A stretch of DNA of 64,000 nt, from positions 15,504,164 through 15,568,163 of the forward strand of contig CM049315.1 of assembly GCA_026874595.1 (NCBI GenBank). The letters are read 5' to 3'. Position 1 is the stretch's first letter, and each line of letters starts with the position of its first letter. Both the position numbers and the translations under genes were made by a program. The notes below the pieces were generated by a model. It had not been told where the DNA came from and made no database searches. It worked only from the letters and a program-made list of their open reading frames with translations. Positions 5,077 to 57,304 of this stretch are shown here, piece by piece. Origin of the DNA: Sipunculus nudus (Eukaryota; Annelida; Sipuncula; Golfingiida; Sipunculidae).

Positions 5077-5950
5077 GTTCTTGGTTCTTACTTCCTTGAT
5101 ATATCCCTGCCAGAGATTATAAAGTTCCAGCGCCAAACTATAACATGGAGATTACCCCGGAAGCCTTTTCCCGCTTGTATGTGTGCCAAAAATAAAAATT
5201 ATGTCTCACACATATCAAGTTTTGTCCCTGGACTGTCCACGCCCGCTGTGTAGAGTTAGGTCCTTTCACTGAATTAAATAAGACCAAGGTAAGCCCGTGA
5301 TGTGAAGAAAATATTTACATAGTGAACAGATCCGCTGTAATAATATTATTCATGTGAAAATGTGTTAACGAAAAACATGGACATGTTATTACATCATCTT
5401 GGCCGGTTTCCGTTGAAGCCATCACAGTGTATTGTATACCATATTATGATATTGATTACCTAAATTGACTTGATTGAGCTCATCTTTAGATAGGCTTGTA
5501 AAAACGGAATTTCCAGCACTGAAACGGGTGATGTTAATAATTCTTTACGATCAGGGAAATTATTTCATTTTTGGGTCGGTCTACATCTTTCTTTTTCTAC
5601 CCTTCTCTTTCCGTTATTGTATAAAACCTCCAGCTCCTGTGTAAAGGTTTGTCTAAGCCACCTTATGTGTTAAGCCTGGCTTTTTCGTGAAATTCAGACA
5701 AGGAAAGAGACAAAGAAAATATTTGAGTTGAGCTAACAGAGGGAATTTGAAATGATCCATCCTTATTCATATGTTGATTAAACACACCATTTATTAAGAG
5801 ACAGCCAATATTCGTCTAAAAAACTCCTTGCTTTAGTAACATAGCAATACAGGGACAAAACAAATATCGAATAAGATTATTTTTGTCACTTAAAGAAACA
5901 GTATTACCCGTGATTTTATTCTTTTATGCATAAAATAATGTATGTTGTAA
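5077..5950. other. non-coding stretch, nothing recognised
   Basis: AT-rich DNA with no credible coding frame, known repeat or RNA gene. Confidence 0.5.
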
Positions 5951-6014
5951 TATGTTATACTATATACTGACAGTATACTGACAGTATATATATATAACTG
6001 TCAGTATATATTAT

Positions 6015-6045
<31 letters not shown>

Positions 6046-9292: not shown

Positions 9293-9537
9293 AGTTATAT
9301 TTTGAATATATACCAATCGATAGATCATCATCATATACTTTTCTTAACAAGTTAATTTGCCATTGTAAGCTGCGTTTATCCCTGCCGAGAGCGAGTCATT
9401 TACTTGTATATATATATATATTATATATAGGATAGCCTTTGCCCTGGCAGGCAGAACTGATCTGTGATGCAAACATCGAGTTGGTGAACCTTGTCACAGA
9501 TTCCTCTTGCTTTGATGTACTTCCTCAACATATATTT

Positions 9538-9688
9538 TGTTACGAAGACAAATAAATGAGGGGAAAATCCTGGGCCGACCCGGGAGTCGAACCCAGGTCG
9601 GTGGCGCACAAGTCCGGCCAACCAACCGCTTCGCTAGCAAAGCAAGCTTCACTAGCGAGACAGTTCGGTCCGCTTTTATGTCACCCCG

Positions 9689-9690
<2 letters not shown>
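9538..9690 (-). mobile_element. tRNA-related short element (SINE-like), copy 1
   Basis: Read on the minus strand, it has a perfect pol III B box, GGTTCGACTCC (9583-9593 complement), within a T-arm-like stem whose halves are CCGACC and GGTCGG. An A-box-like TAGCGAAGCGG (9626-9636 complement) lies about 33 bp upstream, which is normal A-B spacing. A 7-bp hairpin, TCGCTAG/CTAGCGA, lies further upstream. The same 153-bp unit recurs at 54447-54600 in the same orientation with different flanks, so it is mobile and not a tRNA gene. Its ends (TGTTACG on the left, CCCCGTA(AC) on the right of the plus strand) are near inverted repeats. Confidence 0.7.
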
Positions 9691-13493: not shown

Positions 13494-15015
13494 CAGCCAA
13501 TATCACATAGCAGTCACATGATCAAACATGTCTGCCAAATTTAGTAATGATTATTAAAAAAGTTCCTGAGATAAAACAGGTTGCAGATGTTGCACCATAC
13601 ATGCAGATACGTGAAATTAAAAACAAAATCTGTTAAGCAAAATCTAAAGTCCTATTGAAACATCACTTTATTAATAATTTCACTGGATTTACAATTCATT
13701 TATTTCCCTTGCTCAAAGGTCTCCTTGTATATGATCAGAAGACTATTCTTATTTACTGACTTATCTGAATGAAAAAGGGAAAAAAACATTCTCGATCACC
13801 TAAACAGAGATGGCACCATTTACATGTAATAATGACATGTCAGTCAATTGATGAGTGAATCCTCAGTATTTTGTGATGAAAGCAACAGGGTATTGGAGAT
13901 ATTTGGTGACATAATGAGGCGGGATGGAAGGGCGAACGGATGGACCGACCGTCGGACGGAAGGAAGGACGGACAAACGCGGTCCATTTTAGTAGTCCTTC
14001 CTCCTACGGCTTGGGACAATTCATATTTGTATTTTATCAATAATTATCTTCTGGCAGCAAACAGTCAGATTAAAAATGTTATTGCCTTCTGTTTCTTTCT
14101 AGTCCATGAGATAATCAAGAGGCATGCCGGGCCGTCACGCTCATCTCTGCCGAGTATTATTTAAACACCAACGCTTGGCGGATGATTTAATAAATCTTGT
14201 CAGTTATAAAGAAACGGATAATAAGGGCCTCGAACAGTTAGAAGAAAATGATGAACATATTTACCAATGATCCCTAAGTTACACGGACTGGCGGTATTTG
14301 AAGATATATTCATAATAGAGCAGTTGTAAAGTAAACTCAATCAACCCCCAGAATGCGGGAGTGACGGGTTATTAATGAAAGAGTTCATGATGCAAATTAC
14401 CTAATGGGATCCGCTTTTCTTCATAGTAAAGTTGAACATATTTCATCCAGGGCCTGGTTTTAAGACAGATCTGATTAAAACATGTTGTATATAAAAGTTG
14501 CTGACACATTATTAAAGCTTTCGCCTTCGGCAATGAAGTTTGACGAGGGTCCGATTCAACCCGTGCCTTTTTACGATTGTCTGTTGTGGATGAAACATCT
14601 TACGGAAATGGAAATGAACGTTAATGGAAAGATGGACCATTGGCAAGTTGATGAATAAACGTTGGGGTTCATGCACGATATTGTTTTGCTTTTTGGTACG
14701 TTCCAACAATTTACTTTGAAATCTTGCTGATTTCCAGATAGCACTCGTTGTAAGTGAGAATTAAATGATTGAATATCGGGATCAATAAGCATTTTGGCGG
14801 AGGTATGCACTTTCTTATTTGGACAATGATGGATTCGAATACACCGCCTTCACCCGTCATCAAATTGAATACTTCTGCTTTGCAACATAAGCCCCAAATG
14901 TTTCATCATTAGCAAGTTAAAGCATTATTTCTGCATTTTCTATTTAACTCTTTATGACTTTATTCACTTTATTTTTGTTTAAATACATATATTTTGTATA
15001 AAGTACCGAACTCAC
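13494..15015. other. putative intron 2 start of the receptor gene, and non-coding DNA
   Basis: Directly downstream, on the minus strand, of the receptor exon's donor site. It contains a patch of ACGGA/GGAC repeats at about 13917-13980, a motif common in mollusc repeats. No further exon of the receptor is recognisable. Confidence 0.4.
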
Positions 15016-15702
15016 CTGAGTATCGTTGTAGAGGATGTGTATGGAGTAACCAGGTATTATGTTTCGTTCGTTGACATGTTTTCTTGCCAGTTCTGCTGCT
15101 GTTTGGGCGGCAAATCCGTCCTTCAGAAACGGGGATTTAGTTAACTCGAATAATCCACCGATATACAAAGGTATCCTGTCACCAAGTTGATCCGCAACGG
15201 TAGTTCCCACACTTAAAAGATTTTGCCCATAATAATTTCTTTGTAACAAAGGTTCACTTGCATTTTGATCGACCCTACTCATGCGCGAAGAAGAATCGCT
15301 TTCGGCAAAATTGTAATTTCTTGTAGTTTCCTGTTGTGGTTCTGTCTGAAACTTATTTTCCTGGGAGTTGTGACCTACTTGTTTCGAAAACCGATCTAAG
15401 TTTACAGTGCGTTTGAATCTATGGTTATACATAGACAAATCATCTACATGTGTACTCGCAATCTTGGGAATGCTCAAAGATTTCAATTGTCGTGTTTTGA
15501 TATGTTTGTCCTCCTGCCTTGACAACTCTTCTTTTGCTTCATCTGAGTTTTCTATTTTGTGTTCTCCGTTATGGAATGATATGCACCAAATCCAGCAAAC
15601 AAAGGAGAACACTCGCAGAAGGGAGCCAGCCATATTCTTAGAGACATTAATGAGTTTACCCGAGGTTTCGAGTTGGATACTTTCACGCTTCCGCTCTGCC
15701 AT
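15016..15702 (-). CDS. GABA-B-like class C GPCR, 5' coding exon (partial)
   Basis: This exon encodes 229 residues if read from the first AUG (15702), or 206 from the second (15633). Residues 24-44 form a signal peptide (short N-region, hydrophobic VFSFVCWIWCISF). Residues 45-175 are hydrophilic and low in hydrophobics, with a furin-type RFKR at 95-98 and an NAS sequon at 147. From about residue 177, IPLYIGGLFELT, then AAQTAAELARKHVNERN, then IIPGYSIHILYNDTQ, reproduces the opening strand-helix-strand of the Venus-flytrap (ANF-receptor) domain; the wording is closest to GABA-B-type receptors, though a natriuretic-peptide-receptor relative is not excluded. The second AUG is preferred: A at -3, G at +4, directly before the signal peptide. 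The exon ends at CTCAG|GTGAGT (donor 15015-15010), phase 0; the frame beyond is intronic. The remaining ligand domain, seven helices and tail are not found in the window. By homology the product is a plasma-membrane receptor for GABA or a similar ligand. Confidence 0.85.
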
Positions 15703-15823
15703 GAGTTAGTCCATGCCCAAAGGTCACAGAGGTAGCATTCTTGACTACCCCGTGACGGGCTGAGGACGATATGTATCTGTTAGAAAAGTGATGCTTGCTC
15801 TGGATCCACGGTGGCTGGCGCAT
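15683..15823 (-). promoter_or_regulatory. upstream ORF overlapping the first AUG
   Basis: In the 5' leader an AUG at 15823-15821 opens a 46-codon frame that stops at 15683. It overlaps the first in-frame AUG of the receptor (15702) in a different register and ends 50 bp before the second AUG (15633). Ribosomes that translate it would bypass the first AUG and could only reinitiate at the second. Two further short upstream frames lie in the same leader. A role in translational control is inference; the frame itself is visible in the sequence. Confidence 0.55.
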
Positions 15824-19952: not shown

Positions 19953-20147
19953 CTGTTTTCAAGGATACATTTAGTACATGAGCTGTATCGGTTGGGGACA
20001 TAAAATTTGTAAAAGCTAGCTTCAAAGCGGGCTCATTCCTGCTGAAAAAGTCTGATGGCTTTGGTCTCTGGAAAAGTCAAAGTTCTTTTAGGTTCCTGTT
20101 CAACTTACGGCCAATCAGCAACATCCGTCTTCGGTCATGTGACGTAA
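19953..20147 (-). promoter_or_regulatory. candidate promoter and noncoding first exon
   Basis: On the minus strand AAAACAG|GTGAGT (exon end 19953) is a perfect donor. About 150-200 bp upstream are an inverted CCAAT box (plus-strand GGCCAATCAG, 20109-20118) and a CRE-like TGACGTAA (20140-20147). The arrangement suits a TATA-less promoter for the receptor gene. The same motifs could instead serve a plus-strand transcript, because a donor-like CAGGGTAAGAG lies at about 20306 on the plus strand. No transcription start can be proven from sequence. Confidence 0.4.
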
Positions 20148-21453
20148 TAATAAACATGCGTACACGACAAACATTTACGATAACGCCATCCGGTCGGCAT
20201 TTGAGAAGACATTCTTGCGGGTTTTATTCGGTATAAACAGACTAGTATTTTAGCCTGGCAGTATCGGAAAGACAATAACAGTTTGTTTCAGTGCTTGAAC
20301 GGATCAGGGTAAGAGTAAATTAAGCCCATTTTTCCCCTCAGATTTTCTCTTGTATAAACATTGGAGCCTTCCCCGTCCCTAACGTCTTACCACCGGCTGT
20401 ATCTACGATTGTTGTAAACATTCCGGGGATCAAAAAGCTATGGATTATTAATTTTATGTCCCAGTGGTTACTGGGAGTGCTGCAAAAATAAACGACAAAG
20501 CGGCGTCCTCTTTGTCCCGGGCAAGTTCATTAATGTTTGTTCATTGATACCCTTTCCCATGAAATATTCCCCATTACCTGCCCCGCTCGTTTGGTTAACA
20601 AGAACTCTCGAGAAACCCGATGGCATGCTCTAAGAAACATTTTCGCGTCTTTGTCAATTATTGATAGGGGCTTGTATAACAAGGACTGTAAATACCCCTG
20701 TTATCACCGGGTCCTTTTTGTTAAGCGGCAAGGGTTCTTTGTGAGCGGCCTTGCTCGGACCATGAATGGACATTTAATGTTCTGCACCATGCATGGTTCG
20801 ATTTTATCTACTCAGGACACGCAGACAGGCAATTCGATTTTAATGGTTACACTTTCCTTCTACGAATTTTAGCCGGGTTCTGCTGGGCTATTATTATAAT
20901 TGTTCTACTTATGCTGTATACCACAGACTCGTTAGTTTTCATTTACGTGATACCCTAAAGCATTAAAGAAAAACATGCGATTTTTTATCCAAATAAATAC
21001 ATGTACTATGTGTTATTCTTGTGTCTCAGAATGTGTAAGCATTCAGGGCTGGTTAATTTAACAATAAATCTGCTTTCACCTGCCAGACCGCTATAAAAGA
21101 CAACAAAATTTATAACAAGCAACGCCAAACGAAACCGCCTTGATGTTTATTACCAGGGAATAGTTACATTGGTTTCAACTAATTTTAGGGATATACCGGA
21201 GCTACGTGCAAAGAAGAGCTTATACAATCAAGTTTATACGACTGATAAATCAATAAAATTACTGCTTTCCTCGTTCTGGTAATTATCGTGACAGTGATCT
21301 TAATACGTTTACTCTCTAAGCCGTATAACTCTTTCATGTACATATTCATTACTTTATACTTAATACTTTATGGACAGCTTTTATTACGTAACTTGATACT
21401 CCTATTTTGGCCTTTCCTTTCTCATTCTCATATCATCCCTTCTCATGACATCT

Positions 21454-21456
<3 letters not shown>
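20148..21456. other. non-coding stretch, no gene recognised
   Basis: A 111-codon plus-strand frame at 20537-20872 is the longest here, but its product shows no domain, no compositional sign of selection and no convincing splice sites. Nothing else is supportable. Confidence 0.4.

Positions 21457-21518
<62 letters not shown>
21457..21518. repeat. (CT)n microsatellite
   Basis: About 30 uninterrupted CT units on the plus strand. Confidence 0.97.
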
Positions 21519-21521
<3 letters not shown>

Positions 21522-22318
21522 ACTTCTAAATACCGTAGCTGTTATGATTATAACGCCATTTTTAGTTTAGATAGCCTATGGTGTTAAAACTGCGTATATA
21601 TATTTATATAAAAGGACTCCCTCTTTCAAGAACCGTCCACCTGACAACTGAATATTGAAACATCCTAGTTACCCATGGTCGTTATTATGAACCCTTACTG
21701 CATATACTTTCATATACTAAGTATATGAATCAACAGAAACATACGACGACAAAATAATACGTATAGAAGTTGCCTCTGACGTCGTCAAAATTCACACAGT
21801 TTTTATCAGGCAGAGAGGAAGTACATGTAGTTATATATGTCCATTGGATGACAGGAAAGTTCTACTTTATCCTGGTCTAAGTGGCTTTACGACCTTCAAC
21901 TGGGAGACCTGCACCACTTGGTATGAGTATAGTACATTTGCCTTTTATATTCCCCTATATAATGTATATTTGCCTTTCGAATTGTATATTATCATAGTAT
22001 ATGTGTATTGTATATTTATATCATGTGTATACAACTGAAATGTTACTGTACCCAGGACCCTATTAAATATTAAATATCAGCTTACTTGCTAATGAGCTTC
22101 CTGGTAAAATATCTTTGTATTAATTATAAACATTAAACCACAATAAACATCTGTGCCCTATTATGTTTCAGTATCGCACGTGTACCCCGCCCAATCCTAT
22201 TGTGCCACCGAGGACAAAAGGATCAGTGCCAGTCATTAAAATGTCCCCCCCCCCCCCCCATACGCACAAAGCATAATCTCGTAAAGTCTCGGCTTTTCAA
22301 ACCACGCCGTTAGCTTCG
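21519..22318. other. non-coding stretch, nothing recognised
   Basis: AT-rich DNA with a C-run near 22245. No credible frame or RNA gene. Confidence 0.5.
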
Positions 22319-22400
22319 TTCTAACAACATTCACCTGATGATCGGGTCGCATCCCGTGAAACAGACTGTAGTGAATTTACAGTGTTGTTTTTCTCCAGAG

Positions 22401-22437
<37 letters not shown>
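22319..22437 (+). mobile_element. hammerhead-bearing dispersed repeat, copy 1, with (TA)n tail
   Basis: An 87-bp module (22319-22405) recurs in inverted orientation at 31300-31385 with about six substitutions and one 1-2 bp indel. In both copies the end after the ribozyme-like core runs into TTATATA and a (TA)n tract (22402-22437 here). A short conserved module fused to a TA microsatellite is typical of retroelement termini. Penelope-like elements and retrozymes carry hammerhead motifs in such terminal repeats, which is the likeliest origin. No reverse transcriptase frame is nearby. Confidence 0.6.
22329..22376 (+). ncRNA. candidate type I hammerhead ribozyme, copy 1
   Basis: The core elements occur in the right order. 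Stem I strand ATTCAC (22329-22334) precedes CTGATGA (22335-22341). Stem II has CGGG/CCCG around a TCGCAT loop (22342-22357). GAAA (22358-22361) is followed by a minimal stem III of 3 bp with a GAC loop (22361-22369). The predicted cleavage is after GUA at 22370, and GTGAAT (22371-22376) closes stem I perfectly with ATTCAC. A very short stem III is characteristic of hammerheads in animal Penelope-like elements. The weak point is a U-U pair at 10.1/11.1, at the base of stem II, where G-C is normal. Activity is untested. Confidence 0.6.
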
Positions 22438-22438
<1 letters not shown>

Positions 22439-23023
22439 TAGTATCTTTTATCTACTAATTATGATCTATGATCTGGTGCGATGTTAAAAATCATAATGCT
22501 CGGCAACTTGTGTTCAAACAATAACAATTTAAGAGACCACAATTTTCCTTCAAGCTAACCGAGCAAATCGTTAAACTGGCCATACGGAGGTACTTTGTAT
22601 TGTTTGTATTTGTCCGAACATTTCATCATGTTTCATCTGATGAAATCATGTTGCAATCACATTTGAATTAAAAAATCAGTTTATATATGCTGCAGTTCTG
22701 AGGTGCTGTTATAAAAAAAAAAACTTCATTAAAAATCACGTAATACTTTTTCAATAACAAACTTTGCCATGACATATTTTAGCAGCTTCATATACACTCA
22801 TCATTCATTACAACATACACATTTACTAGTGTCTTGGTTACAGGTGGCAAAATGGATTTCTATGTAATTTGCGTCTGCAGTTTTGTATAATATCTTAATC
22901 GCATTTGGTTTCGCTTTTTTTGTATTGACAAGTGGCCCATGGGCCATGACGCTCAGCTGAACTTGAAAATACAAAGAGTGTATTTTAAGATGTATTTGAA
23001 ATATAATTAACATCAAATTTTTA
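22438..23023. other. non-coding stretch, nothing recognised
   Basis: AT-rich DNA with no credible coding frame. It leads into the repeat that follows. Confidence 0.5.
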
Positions 23024-23625
23024 ATTATTCTGTGGGGTACTTTTGAGCCCCATTGCTCCATAGCTCAGAGGTTATGGGTAACAGAGACCTAATTTTAGGT
23101 TTCCAAAGGACTTTTCATGGGTCTCCCTACTTGTCAAGAAAGAAGATTCTAGGTCCAGTCGTTACGATGTATGCCTTGTTTACAGATGACTGCATCTTTT
23201 GAAGTCTCAAAAATAGAGAAAAATCGAAAACAATACAGGTGGCGCCACCAGTCTACAGAAACTGATGAAACACTCCATGATCAATATCCATGCAAAAGAA
23301 AAATTATGGTGATCAATGCATTAGTTCTTCAGATACTCGAGCTTTTGTATCAAATTTCCATTATTCTGGGGGGGGGGGGGGGGGGGGGAGGTACTTCGGA
23401 GCCCCATAGTTCGAAGAATATGGGTAACAGAGACCTAATTTCAGGTTTCCAAGGAGATTTTTTATGGACCTCCCAGGATGTCTGGTAAGAAGATTCTAGG
23501 TCTAGTGGTTACGATTTGTGCCTGGTTAACGGACGGACAGACGGACAGACAGACGGACAGACGGGCGCCGGACAAAGGTTGATCGCTTTAGCTCAGATGA
23601 CTTTCAGTCAGCTGAGCTAAAAACC
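23024..23625 (+). repeat. internally duplicated repeat ending in ACGGACAG units and a hairpin
   Basis: A module of about 155 bp (23024-23177) recurs at 23361-23526; both share GGGTAACAGAGACCTAATTT and GAAGATTCTAGGTC. A G21 run (about 23368-23388) interrupts the second. After it come ACGGACAG-type units (23530-23562), GCGCCGGAC, and a perfect 9-bp hairpin, TTAGCTCAG (23588-23596) with CTGAGCTAA (23612-23620), followed by AAAA. This ending is widespread in bivalve repeats as I recall them; the class of transposon is not clear from one copy. Confidence 0.65.
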
Positions 23626-26600
23626 ATTTGTATCAGCATTTAAATGCAATGAATGGTCTACCCTGTCCAACAACTAGAAATTAAAACTGTTTAAGTCAGT
23701 CAACCCCTGATATAAACAACCGGCACTCTTTAAGTTTGAAAGATGAAGACCAATCGGGTTCTTTTGTTACATCACTCATGTCCTTTTGGACAACCCCGTA
23801 CGCATCTTGCATGTGTTTTATTTCATGTTAATCATTGCTTTAAAGTAAATATTCTTTATTTTGAATCCTACGCATTAACTGACTTGTAGGTCAGTACACC
23901 CCGGTGGTAATCAGGTTTTGTCAAAATATGTAATATGATATTACAGGAATATTTTTCAAATAACATTCGTTTACAAGCATTTAATTCATTAAACAATAGT
24001 TTATCAGTTTTGGTAAAAGATACTCCTATTTACTGCAAAACAATATGATTATGTGGACCCTGGTAAATTTATAGGAAAATAAACTACGAAATTAATCTGA
24101 CAATAGTGCGATGTAAGAAGTGACAAGTATATTTTTACCAAAATGTGTTAAAAAAGAAACAAAATGGATGAAGGGACTCTAATAATATCAATGAGGTAAA
24201 TTCGCCCTGCACAACATATTTCTTTGTGTACTATGTGCATAAATTTGGACATTTTAACATTAGCCCTGAACATATTTTATTCAACAACTGAATAACTCAG
24301 ATGGGTACAGTACTGACCTGTATTTCATGTTTAACCTACATCCTATATTAGTATTATATAGAGCGTATACTCTGTCTACCTACATCAATGAACTCATCAC
24401 AGATCGATTCATTTGCACGCAATCCTAATCAAAGTATTCAATACGCTTGGTGTGGTGAAACAGAATTCCAAAACAATGTACTTGGCATTTTATTACAGAT
24501 TTCATGGTATCATAGGATCAGGTACCTTATATATCGCAGTGGATCGTCTTGCGTCAATGGTTGCTCAGTGATGGCGTCCCGTCCTTGTTATTTATTGATG
24601 TTAATCCTAGCCACCTGACATGTGACAACAAACGCATATGCTATGACCACTCAGAATGACGTTCATGTTAGAGAGTACGGACATGCCGAGTCAGGTAAAT
24701 ATCCGCTTGGTCAAGGATATTAAATTGACCAGTGTCCAAGAGGTGTCCCTATTTATAAACGCAAAATCACGATTTTCCGGCATGTTACTTGGACATATGT
24801 TGTGATCAGCTTCATTTTTCGTTATCGCAGTATTACTTTTCACCTTTATTGTTACTGCTATTATTACTATTATTATTATCAATATAATTAATACGGAGTT
24901 GGGTTTTTTTCTAGAGGACGGTTTACTTTGCTTCCGTTCTGATTTGACTCTACCAATTCGCCAGACGTATCGGTGGTGTGCTCTCCTAGGACAAGTTTTT
25001 TTTTTATTTGCGGGATTATGCCCTATTAAGTTTAATAATTAATAATTTTAATATTTCCCCATAAGGTGCCCCTATTCTTTTGTGCTGCAAGGTCTTCCAC
25101 GCCTGTGACGCTTTTTCAGGAGGCGCCTCGGGGATTTTCACTGGTCTTTTAACCGTGACCAGCGCGCATGTCCTGCCAAAAAGGCATTTCCGTGCAATAT
25201 ACACGGTCTCGCGGGTCCACTATAATCCCCATTGATCCCCAATATCCATTGTAACGCCTCAAAAGGAATTTTCTTTCTCAAAAGGAAGTAAAGGTTTTTA
25301 ATCCAAAGACCACATGACTCCGCTTTCAATGCGAGGGATTTTTAGTTTGGTCAACACTGGGCACTGAGTCCAGTGATGTGACCACCGTTTGACAAATATT
25401 TATGGGTTCCAGGTATGTTGATTTTTATACATTCGAAAATATCTTTCAATGATAACCATGGTTTCAAAAGTTCGGTCAAGTTGTGTGTTTATGAATTTTT
25501 TTTTTCCAAAAGAAGCACCACAACTTAATTATCATTCGGGTTGGGGTGGGGTCACATACATTTGTTAAGATCCGTTATCTGTAGGGACGGTGAAACTTGA
25601 AAAAATATCACCAGTACATCTATAAGTTGATAAAAACTAGTATTTCCTTTAATATCAGCCATGTGTTCACCTGTATGCGTTTCATGTGTGAACACTGTCA
25701 TGCTTTAGTCACACGAGATCAGCTTGCGAGTGGCAGAATAAATAAATACGAATGGATGGCTTCCACACGGGGGCAAAGAAATGGTCCTTTTTCATAATGG
25801 TTAATAAGAAAATTGTTGTGATTTTTATAACCTCCAAAATGAAATGGACTATGGACAATGCAACGAACCAAGGCTAAAGTGTTTTTTTTTTTTTTTTTTG
25901 CTAAATGCTTTTATCGAAATATATCAACCTGTTTTTTTTTATCTGGGACAGTTGTCAGTTTTGCACCAGACCTGCTTATTCCATGACAGTTAACAGTACT
26001 TAAATCAAAAATTTGTTGGAATATATTTTTCTGAACCTATCTTTTTCACATTGGCAGCTATACGTTTCGCGTACAAGAGAATTCAACGACATATGCATGT
26101 GTATACAAATAACGCATGTGTCTGTTAACATGCCTTAGACTATACCCTCAACTGACTACACTGAATAAACATCGTGTTTATGATGTCGCCTGAGCTTCAA
26201 CTAATACAAAGCATCTTTCATATAATTTCACGGTAGAATGCTTCTTTATACAATCGTTATAACTACCATATTTATAAAGGAATGAAAAGCTGTCGGACCT
26301 ATGTTGTTTATCGGGAAAAAAACTTATTTTTTGTGTGATTTCTGGAATAGAATTAATTTTCTATGTTGATATTTTTGGGGAACGTGTTCCTAGAGAACTT
26401 TGCAGAAGTAATCTTTATATCATATAAGTGAAACACATGGCAAAAGTTCCTACCAAACCTTAGGATTAAAATATGCATCGTTTAGTTCCTATCACCTCAT
26501 TAAAAAAACATCAGATAGAGCCGTGGATTTTCCGCGGGAGCAGCTAGTTATTATTATTATTATAACACATTACATGTTATACTATTGTCATTATTCTTAT

Positions 26601-27226
26601 AGTTGAACTTTTGCGAGTAACAATTAATCCTTTTGTGACCTTTGTAATGGCTTTTACGTTTGTATTTTGAACTGTAAATGAGCATCTCTATCTTCCTTGC
26701 GTAAGTGATGACGGTTTTAATTTCTTCGTGTTCATTTTCAAGAATAATTATTTTATTTTGCCATTTTTTATTGTTAACTTGATTTGTTCCTTCTAGGCGT
26801 CTTTTCCTTTATCCATTTATTTTTGCTTCATGATTTATTTTCTTCATGAATCTGAAATTATTATTTTCTTCTTGTTATATTCGTAAGTTTTTGTTTATAT
26901 ATTTATTTTTATTAATTATTTATTCCTCTTTTAGACAACTGGACTTTAGTCATGATTTCTTTTATGATTTCATACATAAAATGTGTCCTGATACATGTTC
27001 ATCAAGGGCTGTTATATGACCTAAACTTTTGCTCCGGAGTTGGAAGCTGCAGAACTACCACAGATATACCTCACGACATTCTAAATTTTTGGAATGACTG
27101 AATGATGGATTTGAAGATGGATTCTTATTTTAATTTCATTATTTATTTACTTAATTATTGGGAGTTTAATACTGATGCCAAGCACATCATTGTATATTAA
27201 GTAGAATATGATGAGTTGCGGGTTGA
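23626..27226. other. non-coding stretch, no gene recognised
   Basis: AT-rich DNA with homopolymer T runs near 25500 and 25881, and a T-rich strand-asymmetric interval at about 26600-26940. No exon or RNA gene can be supported. Confidence 0.45.
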
Positions 27227-27720
27227 CGTCAGTCACCAGAACACTGATCTTGCTACTACTCCAGCATAGGTCGTTAGAACTACATGAAGTAGCAGAACTG
27301 CAGCCAACAGAGAACAACGACAGGCCGCGGTGACAACGACAGCCCGGCTCGCATGACAATGGAGACCATATCTCAAGCGTGTAAGAGGAAATCTCAGCGG
27401 AGAGCAGTGTGTGCAGTCATTCATTTGGACATCTTAATGGAGCGAGCACTTCTTGCGCGGCCTGAGGTTTCCGGCAATAATCTACCAGTTGTCTGTCAAA
27501 TCGGCCTCATCGCAACCTTCACTGTCAACAGCTCGGTTAAAATGCACCTGGATGTGCGTGGCCCCGAGCAAGACAGTGCATCTTTGACACCTGATAATGC
27601 TGATGTGTTTTTCGTTGTCCTTAATGGCTTTCTCAATGTAATGTAGAATCTAAAAACTCCCCGGTCGATACACTTGACTGTGGAAGGCATAACGCGGGCC
27701 ATTTGCTATGACTCTCCACA
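27227..27720. other. GC- and CpG-richer island of uncertain coding status
   Basis: Base composition rises clearly over about 500 bp and both strands stay open in places. On the minus strand a frame from ATG at 27424 contains a hydrophobic stretch (AVVVTAACRCSLLAAVLLL) that resembles a signal peptide, but it stops 63 codons in and any donor site is weak. On the plus strand a 97-codon frame (27353-27646) overlaps it. Neither product is recognisable. It could be a promoter/first-exon island or a decayed repeat. Confidence 0.3.
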
Positions 27721-28157
27721 GTGTGTGCATACATTGGTATAAGTAACTGGTTATAATTGACTATTCTTGAACCACTTTATTGAATATAAATGTTTGAGCC
27801 ATTATCATGCAGAATTATGTATGAGTGTAACAAAACGGGATTTGCAGAGATCTGTATGTCATGTTACAATGAAGAGGCCAGAAGACACAGAAAGCGTTTG
27901 TATCCCACAGACGATTATGATACCACGTGACATTTTAGCGTTTTAAAGAAAATGAAGTTGCCGCCCGACATGCAACTCTGATTGGTGATTTCAAGGCTGT
28001 ACGAGATAGTTCAGTCACGATATAAAAGTTTTCTTTAACATGGATCCCAGAAGTATTCTCTACCTGTTACAGGTATGGGGGAATAATTGATTTTTTAGAC
28101 GAAATTCTTAAAATAGTTTAAATTGTAGATACCATCAACTACTATAAAAAACAAACG
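27721..28157. other. non-coding stretch, nothing recognised
   Basis: No credible gene, RNA or repeat. Confidence 0.5.
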
Positions 28158-28276
28158 TTTCTACACACAATATGTATAGCACGTTGTATCTCCACACCAA
28201 CTTGTATAGCACATTGTTTCTCAAAACCAACTGGTATGGCACATTGTTTCTACACACCAACTTGTGTAGCACATTC
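28158..28276. repeat. 30-bp minisatellite, four units
   Basis: Units begin at 28158, 28187, 28217 and 28247. The first is 29 bp and the others 30 bp. Each has the form T(T/A)TCT..A(C/A)ACCAACT.GTATAGCACATTG with a few substitutions; the second and fourth are most alike. Short local tandem array without flanking element. Confidence 0.85.
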
Positions 28277-29721
28277 TTTTCTTTCAGGATTAGGGATTCT
28301 CAGACAGGATGTATGTAACTTTGAAAGAAAACACATACTTATGTGACATTTCTGAGGTCCTGACATTTAATGGGTCTTCCACTTCTTAATTATAATCAAT
28401 ATTACATTAATTTATAATAATTAATTGAGAAATTTACATTGTGGAGGTCTTCCATACATTGCTGCACACATTGATATTTGCCTTAAATGTGGCATACCGT
28501 GTCTTCTACTATGTGAATTATTTATATCTCCGTATGGCCATTTATGTGTGTGAATTATTGTAACATTCCAGCTTTGTAGGTTCAGTTTACTTCGTCAAGC
28601 CACAGTATTCGTAATAATGAAAATAGTGAGAGTGCAAATCATTTGATACAAAACAGTCTTCTTGACGTAATACCAGGCATTCTCATGGTTTGAACCCCAA
28701 CATGTGAGCTTGTCTACAGTAGAATAATGAATAAAGTTCGACGGGAAATGAAATAACGTCAAGTGCGTCTGGGAACATTTTAATATATGACAATAAGTAG
28801 ACCTTCAAGTGGTAGTATGTTATTTGGAACCATTAAATTAAAACCCGAGCTGATACCTTGACGGTGCTCAGGTCGTACATAAAGCTATATAAATTTCAAT
28901 TTATTATAAATAAATAGTGCCTTATGTACATATAATAGGTGGAACTACTTTTTCCTGCATGTTAACGGTTAAAAAAGAGTATTTTATAAGTCAGTTATCG
29001 ATATAATTTTGCCCTATGAAAGCACTATGGATTGTAATATGCATTTCAGTACCATGTATATCTCATCTTATTTTTAGGTCGAATTAGCGTGTCTTAAACT
29101 TCAGGTTATCTTATATATTTATGTGAAAAAGGACATCACGTATAAGTGTGTTTCTATTTATGGTAGTTGTATATAACGTTAATAAAAATAAATAATGACT
29201 AATTGCAATAATGCCACATAATGCGATTCTTTCTTTCATTTTATTTATAATTCGGTCAACGGGTATTAAATCTGTGCCAGTAAGCCGTCAGATAAGTTGT
29301 CAAGCCATGTGAATTTAAATTACATTACAATGGCTTCTAGCATCGGGTGGAAGCCAGTAGCCCACAAATCTAAGTTATTTCTTTAAAAAATAGACTATTT
29401 GAAAGACAATGACCCACCACTGACAGACAGGCTAGGTTTCACAGCCTAAGTTTGTATTTTACGACACGATTTCTTTCCAAAGCTTGTATCGGCTTTGCAG
29501 GGACTGTTTTTGTTTTTTAATGATGTTTAGGAGACTTATATTCAATTAGCGCCAGTTTTATGAGATTTGTTTTTGCGTGGGATTTGTCATCCGCTGTTTC
29601 TGGGATTCAGTGGAAACAGAAGAATGAAAGAATGCTCCTAAATCAATTGAACTGCTTTACAAAAAAGCGTTAATTTTTCCTATTCAACAAATCGTTCGGA
29701 CATTGAGTTAAACAGTATTGA
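28277..29721. other. non-coding stretch, nothing recognised
   Basis: AT-rich DNA without a supportable exon, RNA gene or repeat. It ends where the 25-bp satellite starts. Confidence 0.5.
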
Positions 29722-30168
29722 CAAATGCCAAATATCTTCATGGTACATACGGCCAAATATCATCATGGTACACACGGCAAAATATCATTATAGTACATAC
29801 GGCCAAATATCATCATGGTACATACGGCTAATAATTATCATGGTAAATACGGCCAGTTATCATCATGGTACATACGGCAAAAAATCATCATGGTTTATTC
29901 GGCCAAATATCATCATGGTCCATCCGGCCAAATATCATCATGGTACATACGGTCAAATATCATCATGGTACACGGGGACAAATGCCATCATGGTACATTC
30001 GGCCAAATATCATCATGTTACATCCGGCCAAATATCATCATGGTACATACGGCTAATTATTATCATGGTAAATACGGCCAATTATCATCATGGTACATAC
30101 GGCCAAAAATCATCATGGTTTATTCGGCCAAATACCATCATGGAACACGCGGTCAAATGCCATCATGG
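29722..30168. repeat. 25-bp satellite array, left part
   Basis: About 18 units with the pattern CATCATGGTACATACGGCC followed by AAATAT, variants differing at a few positions. A higher-order repeat is visible: a run starting at CATACGGCTAATAATTATC (29821) recurs at 30046, exactly 225 bp or nine units later. Because 25 is not a multiple of three, three units (75 bp) give a 25-residue peptide period in all frames, which creates long spurious open frames, including one of 155 codons. The array is cut by a solo LTR and resumes at 30782. Confidence 0.95.
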
Positions 30169-30781
30169 TGTTACAGGTGTCTCTTTTATTGAGCGCAGGA
30201 GTCTTGCCTGTGTCTGTGTAGCGCAAACATAGTTCGTTGCCATGGGTGACGTGCGAGTTGACCCCGCCCTCGTGTTGGGTCTGACGTGTAGAAACACAGC
30301 GCTCATGCTAACCTGGAATTTTCTGGGCTGGTCGCGCTCTATGAGCGCGTGTCTTGAATTGTTCTTTGGGCGCGTGTGTATTATGTATTGTTGGGTTCTT
30401 TGGATTGTTCGTGAAATAGAAGTTTCTAGGCTTTAGGGTGAGAATCTGTAAATTAGGGACTGTGTTTAAGAAATATTCCAGCGTACACGGAAGAGTGTGA
30501 GTCAGTTTGTTGACCTTTCCGATAACTGCAGCAGTTATAGGTCTTCTTCGAATTTTTTTAAGGATTTAATATAGTTTTAAGTTTGCCTTTGGGATCACTA
30601 CCAGAATTCTACTTTTGGATTTCAACATATTGTTTTAGTGATTTAATTGAACTATTATTCTCTGAGAAGATTTATTTGAACTGTTCATCTGGATAATACG
30701 TTTAAAAGGACTTGTTTATCTCCAAAACAAAATTTATGCTCGTCACGACTACGTGAACTGTTGTTATTAGGTTCCGTAACA
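30169..30781 (+). mobile_element. solo LTR, family member 2 (613 bp), inside the 25-bp satellite
   Basis: It begins TGTTACAGGTG and ends TTCCGTAACA, matching the termini of the copy at 56267-57105. Shared blocks include CACGGAAGAGTGTGA (with copy 1), the GACCTTTCCGATAA region and AAATTTATGCTCGTCACGA. The TATA region is decayed (TGTAAATTAGGGACTGTG). It lacks a segment of roughly 200 bp that copies 1 and 3 share in their 3' third. The sequences directly flanking it (CATGG left, AAAGT right) do not form a target-site duplication, but both sides are the same satellite, so insertion into the array is clear. No coding capacity. Confidence 0.8.
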
Positions 30782-31180
30782 AAAGTACATCCGGAAAAAA
30801 ATCATCATGGTACATACGACCAAATATCATCATGAACTACACGGCCTAATATCATCATGGTAAAATACGGCCAAATATCATCCTGGTACACGCGGCCAAA
30901 TATAATCGGGATACGCACGGCCAAATATCATCGTATGGTACATACGGCCAAATATCATCATGGTACAAACGGGGGGGATACAAACGACCAAATATCATCA
31001 TGGTACATACGGCCAAATATAAGCTAGGTACACACGGTCAAAAATCAGCATGGTACATACGGCCAAATATCATCATTGTACACACGGCCAAATATCATCA
31101 TGGTTAATACGGCAAAATATCATCATGGTACATCCGGCCAAATATCATGGTACAAACGGCCCATACGTTTGGCCCATACG
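30782..31180. repeat. 25-bp satellite array, right part
   Basis: It continues the same CATCATGG..CGGCC units for about 16 more copies with more length variation than the left part, including a G-run at 30970 and truncated units near the right end. Confidence 0.93.
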
Positions 31181-31264
31181 TCTGACATGGTGATCAGAAC
31201 CGGTGGTGTCAATTTATATTCAAGGGAAGGGAAAGACCCACAGGCGTGGAAGGGTAATCAAAGT

Positions 31265-31382
31265 TATATATATATATAACATATATATATATATATATAT
31301 ATATAACGCTGAAGAAAAACACTGTAAATTCACAACAGTCTGCTTCATGGGATGCGACCCGATCATCAGGTGAATGTGGTTA

Positions 31383-31440
<58 letters not shown>
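31265..31440 (-). mobile_element. hammerhead-bearing dispersed repeat, copy 2, between two (TA)n tracts
   Basis: The module at 31300-31385 is the reverse complement of 22319-22405 and is flanked by (TA)n on both sides (31265-31305 and 31385-31440). In the element's own orientation the (TA)n after the core is in the same relative place as in copy 1, so this junction is part of the element or its insertion preference. No protein-coding sequence of a retroelement lies nearby. Confidence 0.6.
31328..31375 (-). ncRNA. candidate hammerhead ribozyme, copy 2 (probably degenerate)
   Basis: Read on the minus strand it has ATTCAC, CTGATGA, stem II, GAAG, a short stem III and GTGAAT, so stem I is fully paired as in copy 1. 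Differences: position 15.1 is G instead of A (GAAG for GAAA, giving a G-U pair in stem III), stem II has a C-A mismatch at 10.2/11.2, and the cleavage triplet is GUU. The U-U at the base of stem II is shared with copy 1. These changes make activity less likely. Confidence 0.5.
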
Positions 31441-31442
<2 letters not shown>

Positions 31443-33071
31443 TTTTATTGCCTATTTTCAGTTTTATGTTAAAGCTAAACCAGGTTGATAATATTTCATA
31501 GTAAACTCAGAAATGGAACCAAATTATTAATATTTTGCATTTTCAAAACAAGCATATCATTATTGTTCTCTGAATATCGGGGGGGGGGGGGGGGTGATTT
31601 CATTGATTATCCCCCCTTGCTAAAATGTTCGGGGCATATATACCCCCCCCCTATTGGCTCCAATGACCAGTAGAGAGAATTATTTCACAACAGAATATTT
31701 TAATTAAAAAAGGAGTTTTCTATGAATATATAAAACCAACATCGTATTGTTACAGCAATTTATAATCTTGAAAACAAAATAAAGTATTTCGTGCAATTTG
31801 CACGATGTAAGTTACAAAGTGCTTAGCACCTATAAACAGGTAAGCAACAGAATCGTCCTCGTACAGTTAGAGATCAACAAAAATCAAATTAACGTCTAGA
31901 TCAGGGCCAACCCCAAATTTTGATTATTCTCTCTTATCTTAACAGCTGCCCCATTGTCACTTACTTAATAACAAGCACTGGATCGCAGCTGTCTTTAAAA
32001 AACTCTTGTCAGTGCAAAACATATTTGTTTTTAAAAGTTTAATTAATTATGATATTTATGATGGCAAGATACAAAACTGCATACAAACAGATTTGTTAAG
32101 CAAACCAGCAAGTTAGGGCAAATCTTGACGGTTGTCAATTTCTGGCGTACGGGAGGTCAAAAGAATATAAATAATTGTTTCAGGGGCCCTTATTTTCGGG
32201 TCGTCCCACGTTCTGATGGTACAGATTCACCACGTCTTAGACTGATGAGATACTTTAGGTTCACGGCATTATTTGGGTCTCACCAGAAATGAGCTTTGTC
32301 GCACATTTGACCGAGTTGTGCCAGCTTTTCATTAGCCATGCAAACGTGACCAGTGAACACACAACATAAATGTAGGCCTAATGTAGGCCTATTATATAGA
32401 CAAGCTTGGAAGGAGGGTGCCTTTGTATTTCTGTGCGTGAAATCTATCAGAGGGTTATATGGTCTCATGTCATGTTGTGTATTATACATGAGCACAGCCA
32501 AATACTCTCAATTATTTATCAGTGGAACCTTACGCTCTAATATAAATCGTGGGTCAATAACAATTGTTACTCATTCTCTTTGGGCTCAATATTTAACAAC
32601 AAGAACTTTATTTATTCATCATTTCTCAGTAACGAGAGACTGAGACTTCCTGTATATAAAGCAGCCAATATCTTTACCATTAGTTATTATCAGAATTGAT
32701 AAAAAATAACTTCTAAGAGTGAATATCACTGAAATACGAAAAGAGACTGAGACAGGCAGAAGAACAACAATACAAAAGAAAAGGTATCAGAGTCCTATTT
32801 GACATATTAATTTAATGATAGAAGCAAGGGCTGGAAAACACAACAAGAAGTAAAGGAGGAGAACGCTATAAATCATCAAAATAAGAGATGACCTTTCGAT
32901 TAATGCCTTATGCTTTCATATCCAAGAACAGGTCTTCTACCCACTGACTGCAAATAACAGCGGCCAGTGAAACCGTATAGCGTTCTGAAAGTGTCCGGTG
33001 AGGCCACGCCAAATATGATCTTCTGACTCTTGGCTTCGCTCTTTCCACAGGGCATTAATGATAATTTTTAA
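31441..33071. other. non-coding stretch with G-runs
   Basis: A G16 run at about 31579-31594 and a C-run near 31645 are the only features. The open frames are short and unrecognisable. Confidence 0.45.
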
Positions 33072-33326
33072 CGCCATTTTGGACACCATCTTGGATTTGC
33101 CAGCCAAATGACTTAAAGATGTTTTCACAGATTCCCATGGATCTCTCAACCCCCCCCCCCCCAAAAACAAACTTAAACACACAAAAAAATTACAACCCGA
33201 TGGTGAAAAAAAAGATTATTTATAGCCATTTTTTTAGGAATTCGCGACCATCTTGGACGCCATCTTGGTTTACCAGTCACATGAATACTTAAAATGTTTT
33301 CACTGGCTCCATTGGATGTCTCGACC
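33072..33326 (+). repeat. diverged direct repeat of about 80 bp, period about 173 bp
   Basis: Copy A (33072-33151) and copy B (33245-33326) share CCATCTTGGA..CCATCTTGG, an ACTTAAA.ATGTTTTCAC block and a CTC.ACC end. Between them lies a C14 run. The CCATCTTGGACGCCATCTTG wording is common in animal repeats and probably marks a decayed transposon. Confidence 0.7.
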
Positions 33327-35175
33327 AAAATAACCTAGCAGTAGATAATAAAAATACAGCCCTATAATGAAAAATAAATGATATAAATTATCATATAAAT
33401 TAATATGATTCTTAATTGGAGGAAAAATATTCTTTTCAGACGACGTTTAAATGTTTATATTTCACAACAAAGATCAATTTTTTAAATAATATTGTTCCAA
33501 ATTCCCACCAAATAAAATTGTAGAGTTTTTCTGTAAACGCCAGTTTTACATACTGACACATGGAAGAAAATGCTTTAGTCTTGTTCTGAAATGATGTACA
33601 TCTAATTTATTTTTGCCAGACAATTAATGTACAATGGGCGTTGATATATTGGAACCTGTGTAACGCAACGCTCAATTTCTTGAAAGAGTCAGGTTACCAG
33701 TTAACAGAAATATAAGAGGTACATGCCAGGGCATGTAAGCTCCCGTTTTATAATTGTAATTTGTGATATATAATATCTGATGATCTAATTTAAAGATAGG
33801 TATTATTCACCGATAATAAAAGAAACCATTAAGTATCGTAGGTACCCTGCACCTCTTTATTTGACTGACCCCTGACGCCAATGGGGGTTCCTTAGGCCAT
33901 GCTTAAATTTAGGGAGGATATATGGTCAACCGCCCCCCCCCTCCCTTTTTCGAATCCCCTCTACCCGCTGTTATATACGTCTGTTAAGAGTCGTGATAGT
34001 TTTGCTATCACGAGTGCATGAAGACTAAGCGTAAACTCATGAGCCTTGTCTGGTGAGAATATGTGGGTGGCAACCCCCTTTACCAATGTTCCTGGAATTC
34101 AAAGGTAATAAAAATAGGATATATGATATGCCCCATTGTATACTTTAACTTCTTAATACAAATTTATAAAAATCATTTACAGATAAGACACTGGTGACCG
34201 CATATCAAAAACTACCTCATCAAACAAGGTATGAGATATCAATATGTAACCCTACTGTGTAAAACATTTATTTTATTACAAAAAAAGTAAACATTTGATC
34301 AAGCTCAGTGAACATTACAATCTCAACTATTCTTGTAATTAAGCATTGAACGTCATGGATTTGTGATTGTTTCAAATCAAGCATATTTTCAATGAATGTG
34401 TCCAGTAAAGATGAAATTGAAAGGTCAACGAAGAAAATTAGAAAAAAATACAAACGAACTGGTTAACTAAATTATCTCCCTCTAGCTTTAATAAACCTTT
34501 TTTAAAGGGTTGCTTTGGAGCATTTGCACTTACATAACCTTTGCTCTGCAATAGCCTTTACAATTATCTCAACTACGTTTTTTCTCGGGCGGCCTCTTTG
34601 TCGTCCAGAATAGAGAGTGTTATCTTCGCCATAACATAAGTGGCCTAAATTGGAATTCAGAAGATACAGGACAGATATTGAGCAGCTTGTATTGTTTAGG
34701 AGATGAGTTAATGTATTGTGAGTTGAATATAAGCACATGCAGTTCCGTAACGTCCGAACATTTGGAACATTTTAAAAACTATTTATGAGTTAGTAAGACT
34801 TCATAATAATTCAATAATACAATTTTCCTATCATTTACAAATAGCTTTCCAGCATATTATAACAATTTTCATTCATTAGTGATTTAACTGCCGACTGGAT
34901 GCAATCACTGTCTCAGTGATACCGTGATTAGGGAACACATCCTTATACGTACCCATTGGATAAATATTACTCCCATTACTAAATATAAACACTGAATTAT
35001 AAGTAGATACATTAAATTATAGTCTACGTAACAATGTTATTTCCAATAGTGTATATCATAGTAATTATATGCTTATTTAACTTAATAAGTAGAGCGCCGT
35101 AATGTCGAGCTTTTACCACTGATTTCCCCTCAGAGGTAAGTTTACTCCGAAGTGAATATCTTGATTTAATCTAGG
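33327..35175. other. non-coding stretch, nothing recognised
   Basis: AT-rich DNA with a C-run near 33932. No exon, RNA gene or clear repeat. Frames at 34268-34453 and 34502-34738 have no recognisable product. Confidence 0.45.
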
Positions 35176-39800: not shown

Positions 39801-41539
39801 TTGAAAGATTGAATCAATCAAACTATCAAAATGAGAGAGGGTGTTATGTTCATGGTTCAATTTGATTTTATTGATATATTTACATGACATGTATGAATGT
39901 GTCAGTTAATGAATAAATAACAACGCGAGAGATGGGTCTTTGGTTCAAAATGATTTTACTAATTGGTTACTCAGCATAGCTATGATACACTTTGACCTTT
40001 GAGTCATTTTACTGGTTATAAAATACCATACTTCATTCACCTTCGCATTACTTGTACCAGGCTATAATCAAATGCATATATCTCTCAGATGTTTTATCTC
40101 AATTTCCAGACTAATAAATAGGGATTCGGTGCATGTTATACCCAATCCGCATCTACCTTTCCAAAAGCACGACTCAGTGGGATGAATCCAATTGCTGTAA
40201 TATGTGCGTCCCTGTAGATCGGGTGTCTCTGATTGACCAGAGAACATTCTATAAACGCCAGAGGCCAGCTTCTCCAATTGATTCTCTACGCCTGAGATAT
40301 GAGGCGACATCAGACGAACCATGAACCGACGTGTGATCTAGTCCCGTATTCTTGTCAGAGAAAGGGATCTTTGAGCTGAATTATTGCCTCTCTTGAGAGT
40401 GTTCAAGTAAACTTATCTGCCAAATAAACCCTGAACTATGTAGTATAAAACAGCCGGTCTCCGTCCCCTGTATATTGGTTATACCACGTTATACACGGGT
40501 CCCATGTAGAGATCATTTTGTTAAGCCTCCTTAAAGAAACCGGAATGTTTATTTCTATATTGATATATTGTTCATTTTTGGCACATTTTTGGTTCACAGG
40601 CGTGTAAAACTATCGACAAAAGTTTTCTTTTTTTCTTCTTTTTCCGTGTTAACTCTGCATATCGAAGCCAGATTTTACCAGAACTGAACCTCAGTCAGAG
40701 TAATGCCGATATTTACCTAATTAATTTGACCTCGAATTAATTTGATTTTTTTATCCAACATTTCAATCAGGAATTAAAAATAAGATTTTCAGTTAAATGA
40801 ACTCTCTTGTTGATGGTAAAATGAAGTTATTGTACCATAAATACACGTTCGGATAAACAGGTCAATAGGAAATCCTGATAGCATTAATATGCAGTACTAC
40901 TATGTTCAAATGCTGCATCATTTTTCAGCATGCGACTCGGACCGATAACACCTGGCACGCACACACAAACAATTAAGCCGGTGTATCAGGAACTATAACA
41001 TCCAAATTCACGGTCATCAGACACATTATAATATTAAGTATATACCAGTCTAACCAGAAACTGAGCGCTTTTCTTGAAGCTGTGTGTTAACCATAAAGTT
41101 TCTCGCAGGAGCTCGATTCCTGGCAAAATCTGTGCATATTCAAAGTGATGAAAATTCGCAAAACTCACGATGTAATGCAGTCGCAAATGTTCAGAAATGA
41201 ATTCCTGTAGACATTTTCTGAAGAAAGCATGATACATTTCCAGCCAGTTAAATAATATCCTAAAAAAATAGAAAAACATAGGCGGCAGTGTGGTAGCCAT
41301 GTTTGAATCAGGATGGCAGCCATATTTCATATTGGCTGTCACGTGGTAATACAAAATCGGTTTTTGGCATAAAAAGTGACAGGATTGTCAGATATTCATG
41401 ATTGTTTGTACCTAATTCAATGTGTTTTATTACATGTTACATAAAATGTGATAATTAAAAAATATATCTACAAAAATAAATAATACAAAAGATTCAAATT
41501 AAACCATTTTAAGAACGATTTATTTCGTATTCAAATTTT
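39801..41539. other. non-coding stretch, nothing recognised
   Basis: No supportable gene. GGCAGCCATATTTCATATTGG near 41313 resembles GGCGGCCATATTTCAAAATG near 46335 in the same orientation, outside the two inverted arrays described next. Confidence 0.45.
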
Positions 41540-52515: not shown

Positions 52516-54446
52516 TCTAATATTTATTGTTTGCCTAGTGTTAATTTTCCTTTCCATCTCAGTAAAACCACCCTGTCAAACAGAAAAAAACTAGCATTCA
52601 CACTCTTTAATTCTGCGTTTTTACATAGAAATGCCTTGTTTCAAATCCTCGATAATTAAGAATTATTATTATTAGAAGGTACTTTATTTTACCCACAGTT
52701 TTATGTCACTGAAAACAACATTAATAGTTTAACATCTTGATATATTGGATATCAAATTTATTCTTTGTTGTTAATTTCCTTGATTTATAATTAAAAATTC
52801 ATGCATTTTATAATTCACAGACGTGTTTGCTTTAGGAAACCCATAAAGGGCAACTGGCTTGCATTTGTTAATAAATTAAATTCTTAATGGAAACGGTTGC
52901 TTCAGAATAGGCAATTATAATCCTGGTAAAACTTGGTTTGAATATCCTGAACGTATATGCCCTGATAAGTTAAAAAATGACTTCATTGGATGGGATACTA
53001 TGACGTCAGACTTCTCTCCTCAGCAAGTACAAACAAACCGCATATCGAACATATAATTTATTTTACTTTCCTCATTCCCTTTATATATGTTTCTGAAATC
53101 ACATTACCAGGAAATGCAAAACCTCGTTAAACATTAATAAATTTTTTGCCTTTGCATTCCGATAAAAGTTTGATATTCCAATTGGCAACTAAGATCTGAA
53201 GATTCTATCGGTGACTTCCTTCCGCTATGCCTTGTATATCGTACAGTGCGTCACCTTCAGTCCGTTAAGACCAATATAATCAATATTCTTTTATAATTTG
53301 AAGACTTGTGAGACATACGCATGCAAGATATTGTTTACCGATACGTACGGATACTAGTTTATAATTTCCTTAAAAAGGTTTGTTTACTTTTTAGATAAGG
53401 ATTAAAATGAACGTTTCGTTAAAAAGTATTTTAATCAGCATTCTATACACGGAAAATGAAGGAATCTTAGAGGGCTAATCGGTAGTATATTTCATATTCC
53501 ATGTAACTTTGCTCAGAGCTCATATACAGACATCGAAATCGCCTTTACTTTTAAACCTAATTGAAATGCAATGTTTCTGTTACTTTCTGTGACAGGTGCG
53601 TCCTTATTTTCAAAACGAGACATGCCAAACAGACATAACACATATTATTTATGAAATTATGAAATTTCCTTCAGGTGAGTATGCTATTCAGTGTAAGTAG
53701 AACAGATTTACGTACCGTCAATTACTTGCAGTGATTTGTTGAAATGCTGCAAAATCTTTTGTCTCACAACATTGGCGTTAAGGCTTGTTGTCGTCAGGGT
53801 TTCTGTACAATTGTCACACCGCCGAAAGAATGGACTTTCCAGGTTGTTATAAACGGTGGAATAAACCGGCTGAAAACTACACATACACGCAAAACGATGG
53901 GGAAAATGTTGTAACATAAACAATAAAATTATAATCAAATTCAAACTTGCTATACTTTGGAGAGGCGTTGCACATGCAAAATATGAAGCTCCTTAGAGTC
54001 CATATGATTACACAAATTCACTGAGTCCTACCAAATCCTGACACTCGCCGTAAGCACATATCACACAGAAAGTATACTTGTCAACACGGCCGCTGGTCAC
54101 ATGATCGTCGCGCACGTGACTTAGGTATGCACAGCCTTCTCTGTAACATCACTCAGACAATGTCTGTCACTGCAGTATTTTCCCATAATGTATACAGCAC
54201 TCAGTACCCGAATATGCCACGACAATATTCACAATATTCGGTATCATTCACAATGATCCGGGTATCAATTGTCCTCGTCTGTTTGCTAGGCGTCACCACA
54301 GCAGAAACACAAGTCCTCCTGTTAACACAACTCCTAACAAGAACTCTTTTACTATTGGTATTTCGCCCATACTCCGGGTGTTGAAAGTTTCTAAGCTATT
54401 TTAGTGCCGAAAACGAGTACCTGTGTCCCTACGCTAACATTGATAC
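52516..54446. other. non-coding stretch, no gene recognised
   Basis: No supportable coding exon. E-box-like sequences (CACATGATC, GCACGTGAC) lie at 54097-54120 in a small GC-rich patch, without an exon that I can defend. Confidence 0.4.

Positions 54447-57257: not shown

Positions 57258-57304
<47 letters not shown>

Follow-up and report, generated by a model that had tools for sequence, protein, structure and literature searches.

One coral genome has more than 6000 type I hammerheads of the minimal or canonical form (PMC7229834), and in many metazoan genomes minimal type I motifs are found by the thousand, for the most part scattered through non-coding DNA (PMC7761336). Published animal retrozyme repeats measure 170–400 nt, and the axolotl retrozyme motif HHR_Amex2 combines a short helix III with a U-U below stem II (PMC7229834). 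Minimal motifs of the Penelope type are usually devoid of helix III altogether (PMC7761336). Dimeric action of hammerheads is on record for amphibian retrozymes and has been suggested for the Penelope motifs (PMC7229834, PMC7761336). Homing to AT-rich DNA was described for PAc, a hammerhead-bearing Penelope-like element (PMC11167929). The PAc hammerhead cleaved only when protein was added, insertion still took place with hammerhead mutants, and reads ending at the cleavage site were absent (PMC11167929), so that a role of the hammerhead in mobility is unestablished even in this element. In the 2011 hammerhead survey (PMC3088659), U10.1-U11.1 was found in natural hammerheads and supported more cleavage than any other mispair at that place; candidates mispaired at 10.1-11.1 were rejected unless their activity was measurable, and most of those rejected were cryptic mutant hammerheads located within repeats.

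The window (the whole stretch of DNA that was analysed, 64 kb, G+C content 36%) carries a type I hammerhead motif with an intact core at 22329–22376 on the forward strand, and this motif is very probably derived from a hammerhead. It was recognised in the sequence, was the single match of a type I descriptor applied to both strands (looser stems added none), and was the top match of the covariance model R1 described below. Stem I has 6 bp (ATTCAC 22329–22334 with GTGAAT 22371–22376; sequence and descriptor). Between its strands follow the core segment CTGATGA (positions 3–9, 22335–22341), stem II (22342–22357; CGGG 22343–22346 with CCCG 22353–22356 and the 6-nt loop TCGCAT; sequence and descriptor), the core segment GAAA (positions 12–15.1, 22358–22361), and stem III (22361–22369), in which ACA (22361–22363) and TGT (22367–22369) form 3 bp around the loop GAC. 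The first pair of stem III is A15.1-U16.1 in the standard hammerhead numbering. Hammerhead cleavage sites are placed by the NUH rule, and cleavage is accordingly predicted 3' of A17 in the GUA triplet, at 22370. The three helices are joined at the core and stem I is open-ended, as in the type I topology.

The preliminary description had placed the motif at 22329–22376 and named its core parts in order, and all of them are present in the sequence, in agreement with the descriptor; the U-U at the base of stem II, which it called non-canonical, was confirmed at 22342/22357. All entries of the type I core list in PMC3088659 are found in the motif, both C3 U4 G5 A6 N7 G8 A9 and G12 A13 A14 A15.1, U16.1 and H17. 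A Watson-Crick pair at 10.1-11.1, beside the core, is absent, the two positions being U-U instead, and because of this mispair the motif would be set aside under the rules of that survey. A possible distal stem I (22323–22389, forward strand) would pair AACAAC (22323–22328) with GTTGTT (22384–22389) across a 7-nt bulge (22377–22383). Its six Watson-Crick pairs are equalled by 5% of random segment pairs, or 29% when G-U pairs are counted, and the same helix is present in the non-hammerhead fold too.

The motif lies in a repeat that had been called dispersed, and within the window one more copy was indeed found, inverted, at 31385–31305. The non-microsatellite part of the first copy (copy 1) spans 22319–22401 on the forward strand, as delimited by its alignment with copy 2 in BLAST and nhmmer; copy 2 lies on the reverse strand about 9 kb away, with its hammerhead part at 31375–31328 (alignment, R1). 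A (TA)18 microsatellite is located directly 3' of copy 1 (22402–22437), and on the reverse strand copy 2 is followed 3' by (TA)n (31265–31305) and preceded 5' by (TA)28 (31385–31440; Tandem Repeats Finder, the last also by alignment). Thus, (TA)n adjoins three of the four repeat ends; the AT-rich insertion site expected of Penelope-like elements is present at these ends, and this feature is not specific to Penelope-like elements. No third copy was detected in the window by BLAST or by nhmmer with all filters off (next best E 2.8), and by BLAST in the window the copies share no sequence beyond the repeat of about 84 bp.

Over 84 alignment columns, the copies differ by six substitutions and one 3-nt gap, with 75 of 81 aligned bases identical; since the nhmmer two-row alignment was poor at the 3' end, identity was counted on the other pairwise alignment. 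Half of the substitutions (3/6) fall inside the 48-nt motif, where copy 2 has A for G11.2, G for A15.1, and U for A17. The first of these breaks the stem II pair 10.2-11.2 (C-A), the second departs from the type I core at 15.1, and the third leaves U at H17. As all three strike functional positions, the hammerhead of copy 2 is probably dead. Substitutions amount to 3 of 48 positions in the motif and 3 of 33 in the aligned flanks; conservation of the motif does not clearly exceed that of the flanks. In stem II one change breaks a pair, and the six inner base pairs of stem I are invariant in the two copies; an absence of compensation in these two stems had been named in advance as evidence against a ribozyme, and no compensatory change was seen in stem II or in the inner part of stem I between these two copies. 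Copy 2 also has C for A at 22326, which could allow pairing to the 3' strand of the distal stem I, and this single case was given no weight. The copy differences fit the neutral decay of a once-intact hammerhead and do not by themselves prove one.

Chance expectation was estimated with 5329 dinucleotide shuffles, in which no match was obtained at stems II/III/I of at least 4/3/6 bp, versus one in the window. With looser stems, the same shuffles gave 4 (4/3/4), 30 (3/2/4), and 99 (3/2/3) matches. By analytic estimate, about 1.3e-4 matches to the permissive descriptor are expected per 64 kb. For the motif in its actual form the estimate was about 7e-8, a figure fitted after the fact and restricted to Watson-Crick pairs and short loops. 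In all, the motif combines 13 matching core positions with 13 Watson-Crick pairs in its three stems (A15.1-U16.1 included).

No hammerhead was found with Rfam 15 at the gathering cut-off, nor at E up to 10 in 301 bases, 73 bases, or the whole window. The matches returned at E up to 10 (12 in the 301 bases, 20 in the window, and 0 in the 73 bases) were all non-hammerhead and all below the gathering score. An AT-rich inverted repeat with TACTGACAG units was observed at 5950–6021 in an Rfam alignment. As a control for Rfam, ten viral loci were taken from a hammerhead pattern scan of viral contigs (at least 120 stretches). The pattern fixed GTC/GAC in stem II, which was common to all 130 matches listed, and type I closure was found in 90 of these 130 listed matches. 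By the descriptor, 9/10 control loci had type I closure (L033 weakly; L081 did not), and RF00163 was reported at gathering in one of the nine loci with predicted type I closure (L075). In the E-value mode, L069 reached 28.4 bits with RF00163; the scores of L071 were 24.7 bits with RF03152 and 24.5 bits with RF00008. At a low cut-off, Rfam detects these two controls but not copy 1.

The Rfam family Hammerhead_1 (RF00163) has the same topology and core as copy 1, yet gave no match at E 10, and its consensus carries G10.1-C11.1 and GUC, neither of which is present in copy 1. For this reason, a separate covariance model (R1) was built from nine distinct 49-nt hammerhead motifs of viral contigs, chosen from 15 fixed-length pattern matches with at least 13 of 15 pairs required; nothing from the window was included. 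With filters off, the best R1 match in 64 kb was exactly 22329–22376 (15.5 bits, E 0.016), followed by copy 2 (31375–31328, 12.5 bits, E 0.17) and an unrelated match at 40981–41026 (11.0 bits, E 0.54), out of 26 matches at E up to 10 over the window; the E-values are rough, as the calibration was short. The alignment of copy 1 skips stem II and relies on stem I, CTGATGA, GAAAC, and stem III, and the alignment of copy 2 relies on stem I and CTGATGA only, as does that of the third match. Because copy 2 and the unrelated match share the same limited basis, the informative part of the result is the rank of copy 1. The preliminary description had held that the absence of any covariance-model hit would speak against a hammerhead; the absence is real for Rfam at E up to 10, and it does not extend to R1, where copy 1 came first. 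Its broader proposal, that a dispersed repeat carries a type I hammerhead motif, is borne out by the descriptor match, the R1 match, and the second copy.

Relatives of the repeat were searched for by pattern in contig collections. In viral contigs, one pattern gave 27 stretches, one gave 3, and three others gave 0; in genome contigs, the pattern search gave 0. None of the 27 stretches coincided with any of the four matches that R1 gave at E up to 10 (default filters), and no hammerhead was seen by eye in the other 3. As the collections consist of viral and prokaryotic DNA, the absence of relatives says little.

The surroundings of the repeat were also searched for a parent element. No Pfam match to a reverse transcriptase or GIY-YIG domain was obtained in the six frames of 20001–34000 (stops read as X), and hence no coding parent element is seen in this interval. 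A tandem retrozyme unit of about 170–400 bp is absent at 22.3 kb, where there is just the (TA)18 beside copy 1. Two tandem dimers were considered as hammerhead carriers and rejected: 519–1061 (275-bp units, about 89% alike) had no descriptor match, and 57278–57922 had no descriptor match and reached just 7.5 bits with R1 at 57337 and 57659. The dimer at 57278–57922 consists of two 322-bp tandem units of 99% identity, which start in TA/TTTA simple repeats and are of retrozyme-like size.

Other features were recorded in the window. A minisatellite of 25-bp units (AAATATCATCATGGTACA type) occupies 29727–31148 in several blocks, and an array of 196-bp units (5.5 copies) is located at 55121–56207. 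A dispersed 165-bp repeat is found at 9527–9690 and 54436–54600, the copies being 89% alike, with GGTTCGA in one and GGTTCAA in the other. From its resemblance to such elements, we take it to be perhaps a tRNA-derived SINE; ARAGORN found no tRNA in it. On the reverse strand, an exon-like open frame lies at 14944–15705, residues 168–241 of which resemble GABA-B receptor subunit 1 (PDB chain, E 1.1e-4); with this exon, the window has the look of animal DNA. A protein search yielded 337 candidates, none of them at E 0.001.

In nearest-neighbour folding of the 48-mer, the hammerhead had −7.4 kcal/mol and the best fold −11.3 kcal/mol; for 86 nt, the values were −11.1 and −19.0 kcal/mol. The folding energy was not unusual (z = −0.8 and −1.7). 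In the minimum-free-energy fold of 77 nt, a competing forward-strand hairpin, ACTGTA/TACAGT (22365–22383), pairs the cleavage-site base and is incompatible with the hammerhead. As a hairpin, stem III was calculated at +2.1 kcal/mol, and its near-palindrome ACAGACUGU self-pairs between two copies (4+4 bp, −6.9 kcal/mol). This self-pairing would correspond to the geometry of hammerheads acting as dimers and is weak evidence for it, as the gain over the hairpin is one G-C pair. Since stem III is unstable as a hairpin and the near-palindrome pairs well between two copies, activity is predicted to have been probably mainly that of a dimer. Current activity of copy 1, as predicted from its sequence and fold, is doubtful: being solo and facing a misfold of greater stability, it probably shows slow cleavage or none in the cell despite its complete core.

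Set beside the metazoan non-LTR retrozymes of PMC7229834, the locus shares the type I topology, a short helix III, and low-GC DNA, and with HHR_Amex2 it shares the U-U below stem II. Unlike those retrozymes, it has no tandem 170–400 bp unit and consists of solo copies of about 84 bp against (TA)n; its helix III has 3 bp and a 3-nt loop, versus 2 bp and a tetraloop there, and any tertiary loop contacts are putative here. The Penelope-like and Terminon hammerheads (PMC7761336, PMC11167929) are similar in being dispersed minimal type I motifs with possible dimer action and AT-rich sites, and differ in that a 3-bp helix III is present here (PMC7761336) and that a coding remnant was not found in 20001–34000. 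A minimal stem III had been described at the outset as known from both Penelope-like elements and retrozymes; this agrees with the retrozyme motif HHR_Amex2 (PMC7229834) and less well with the Penelope motifs, for which a missing helix III is the usual state (PMC7761336). The cryptic mutant hammerheads set aside in the 2011 survey (PMC3088659), as described there, are also alike in lying in a repeat and having a mispair beside the core.

We consider it likely that the repeat is a solo, truncated or reduced, decaying remnant of a metazoan retroelement of the retrozyme or Penelope-like class that carried a type I hammerhead. This reading is favoured because of the descriptor match versus 0 in 5329 shuffles, the R1 ranking, the inverted second copy, the (TA)n ends, the natural occurrence of U10.1-U11.1, the dimer geometry, and the published abundance of type I motifs; cited against it are the Rfam result, the U10.1-U11.1 rule, the skipping of stem II by R1, the folding, the lack of compensation, the lack of a tandem unit and of a coding parent in 20001–34000, and the PAc findings. 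A chance likeness to a hammerhead, in a short repeat that forms hairpins and never cleaved, would be in line with the silence of Rfam on hammerheads at E up to 10, the three functional positions broken in the second copy, the unremarkable folding energy, and a permissive descriptor that expects roughly two random matches per Gb. Such a chance resemblance is nonetheless unlikely, as the core positions and pairs coincide in a way never met in the shuffles, an independent model puts both copies on top, and the published type I counts, thousands per genome in many animals, far exceed the chance rate (PMC7229834, PMC7761336). The opposite view, a live functional retrozyme at this locus with circular RNA produced from copy 1, could draw on the intact core of that copy and on the possible distal stem I with its bulge. 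It is very improbable in light of the missing tandem unit at 22.3 kb, a repeat far shorter than the published 170–400 nt (PMC7229834), two solo copies in opposite orientation, and a stable competing fold.

Within the remnant reading, the repeat may be a Penelope-like fragment (a piece of pseudo-LTR with a hammerhead) and not a retrozyme. The AT-rich junctions, as in PAc (PMC11167929), and the solo short copies point that way, and the 3-bp helix III, usually missing in Penelope-type motifs (PMC7761336), together with the absence of a reverse transcriptase or GIY-YIG domain in 20001–34000, points away from it; we regard this assignment as possible and somewhat doubtful. For the decaying remnant as a whole, RNA of the putative parent element would have cut itself 3' of A17 (position 22370 in copy 1), with a 2',3'-cyclic phosphate and a 5'-OH as the resulting ends. 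Self-cleavage would have trimmed tandem transcripts into units, and the trimmed units may then have been circularised and/or reverse-transcribed into AT-rich sites. It is also conceivable, and very unlikely, that the hammerhead unit of about 84 nt plus (TA)n was itself mobile, as an RNA circle of roughly 110–140 nt that moved into, and perhaps seeded, (TA)n. If so, the circle would be smaller than the 170–400 nt animal retrozymes published in PMC7229834, and copy 2, flanked by (TA)n at either end, would be the leftover of one turn of the circle.

On the remnant reading, the locus holds a probable hammerhead relic that can be recognised in raw animal sequence despite the absence of an Rfam hammerhead report. 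As the curated Rfam models report none here, Rfam-based counts of hammerhead relics may be low. Otherwise, the repeat would be one more family in an already published class. The (TA)n junctions provide a testable clue to the integration sites of the parent element.
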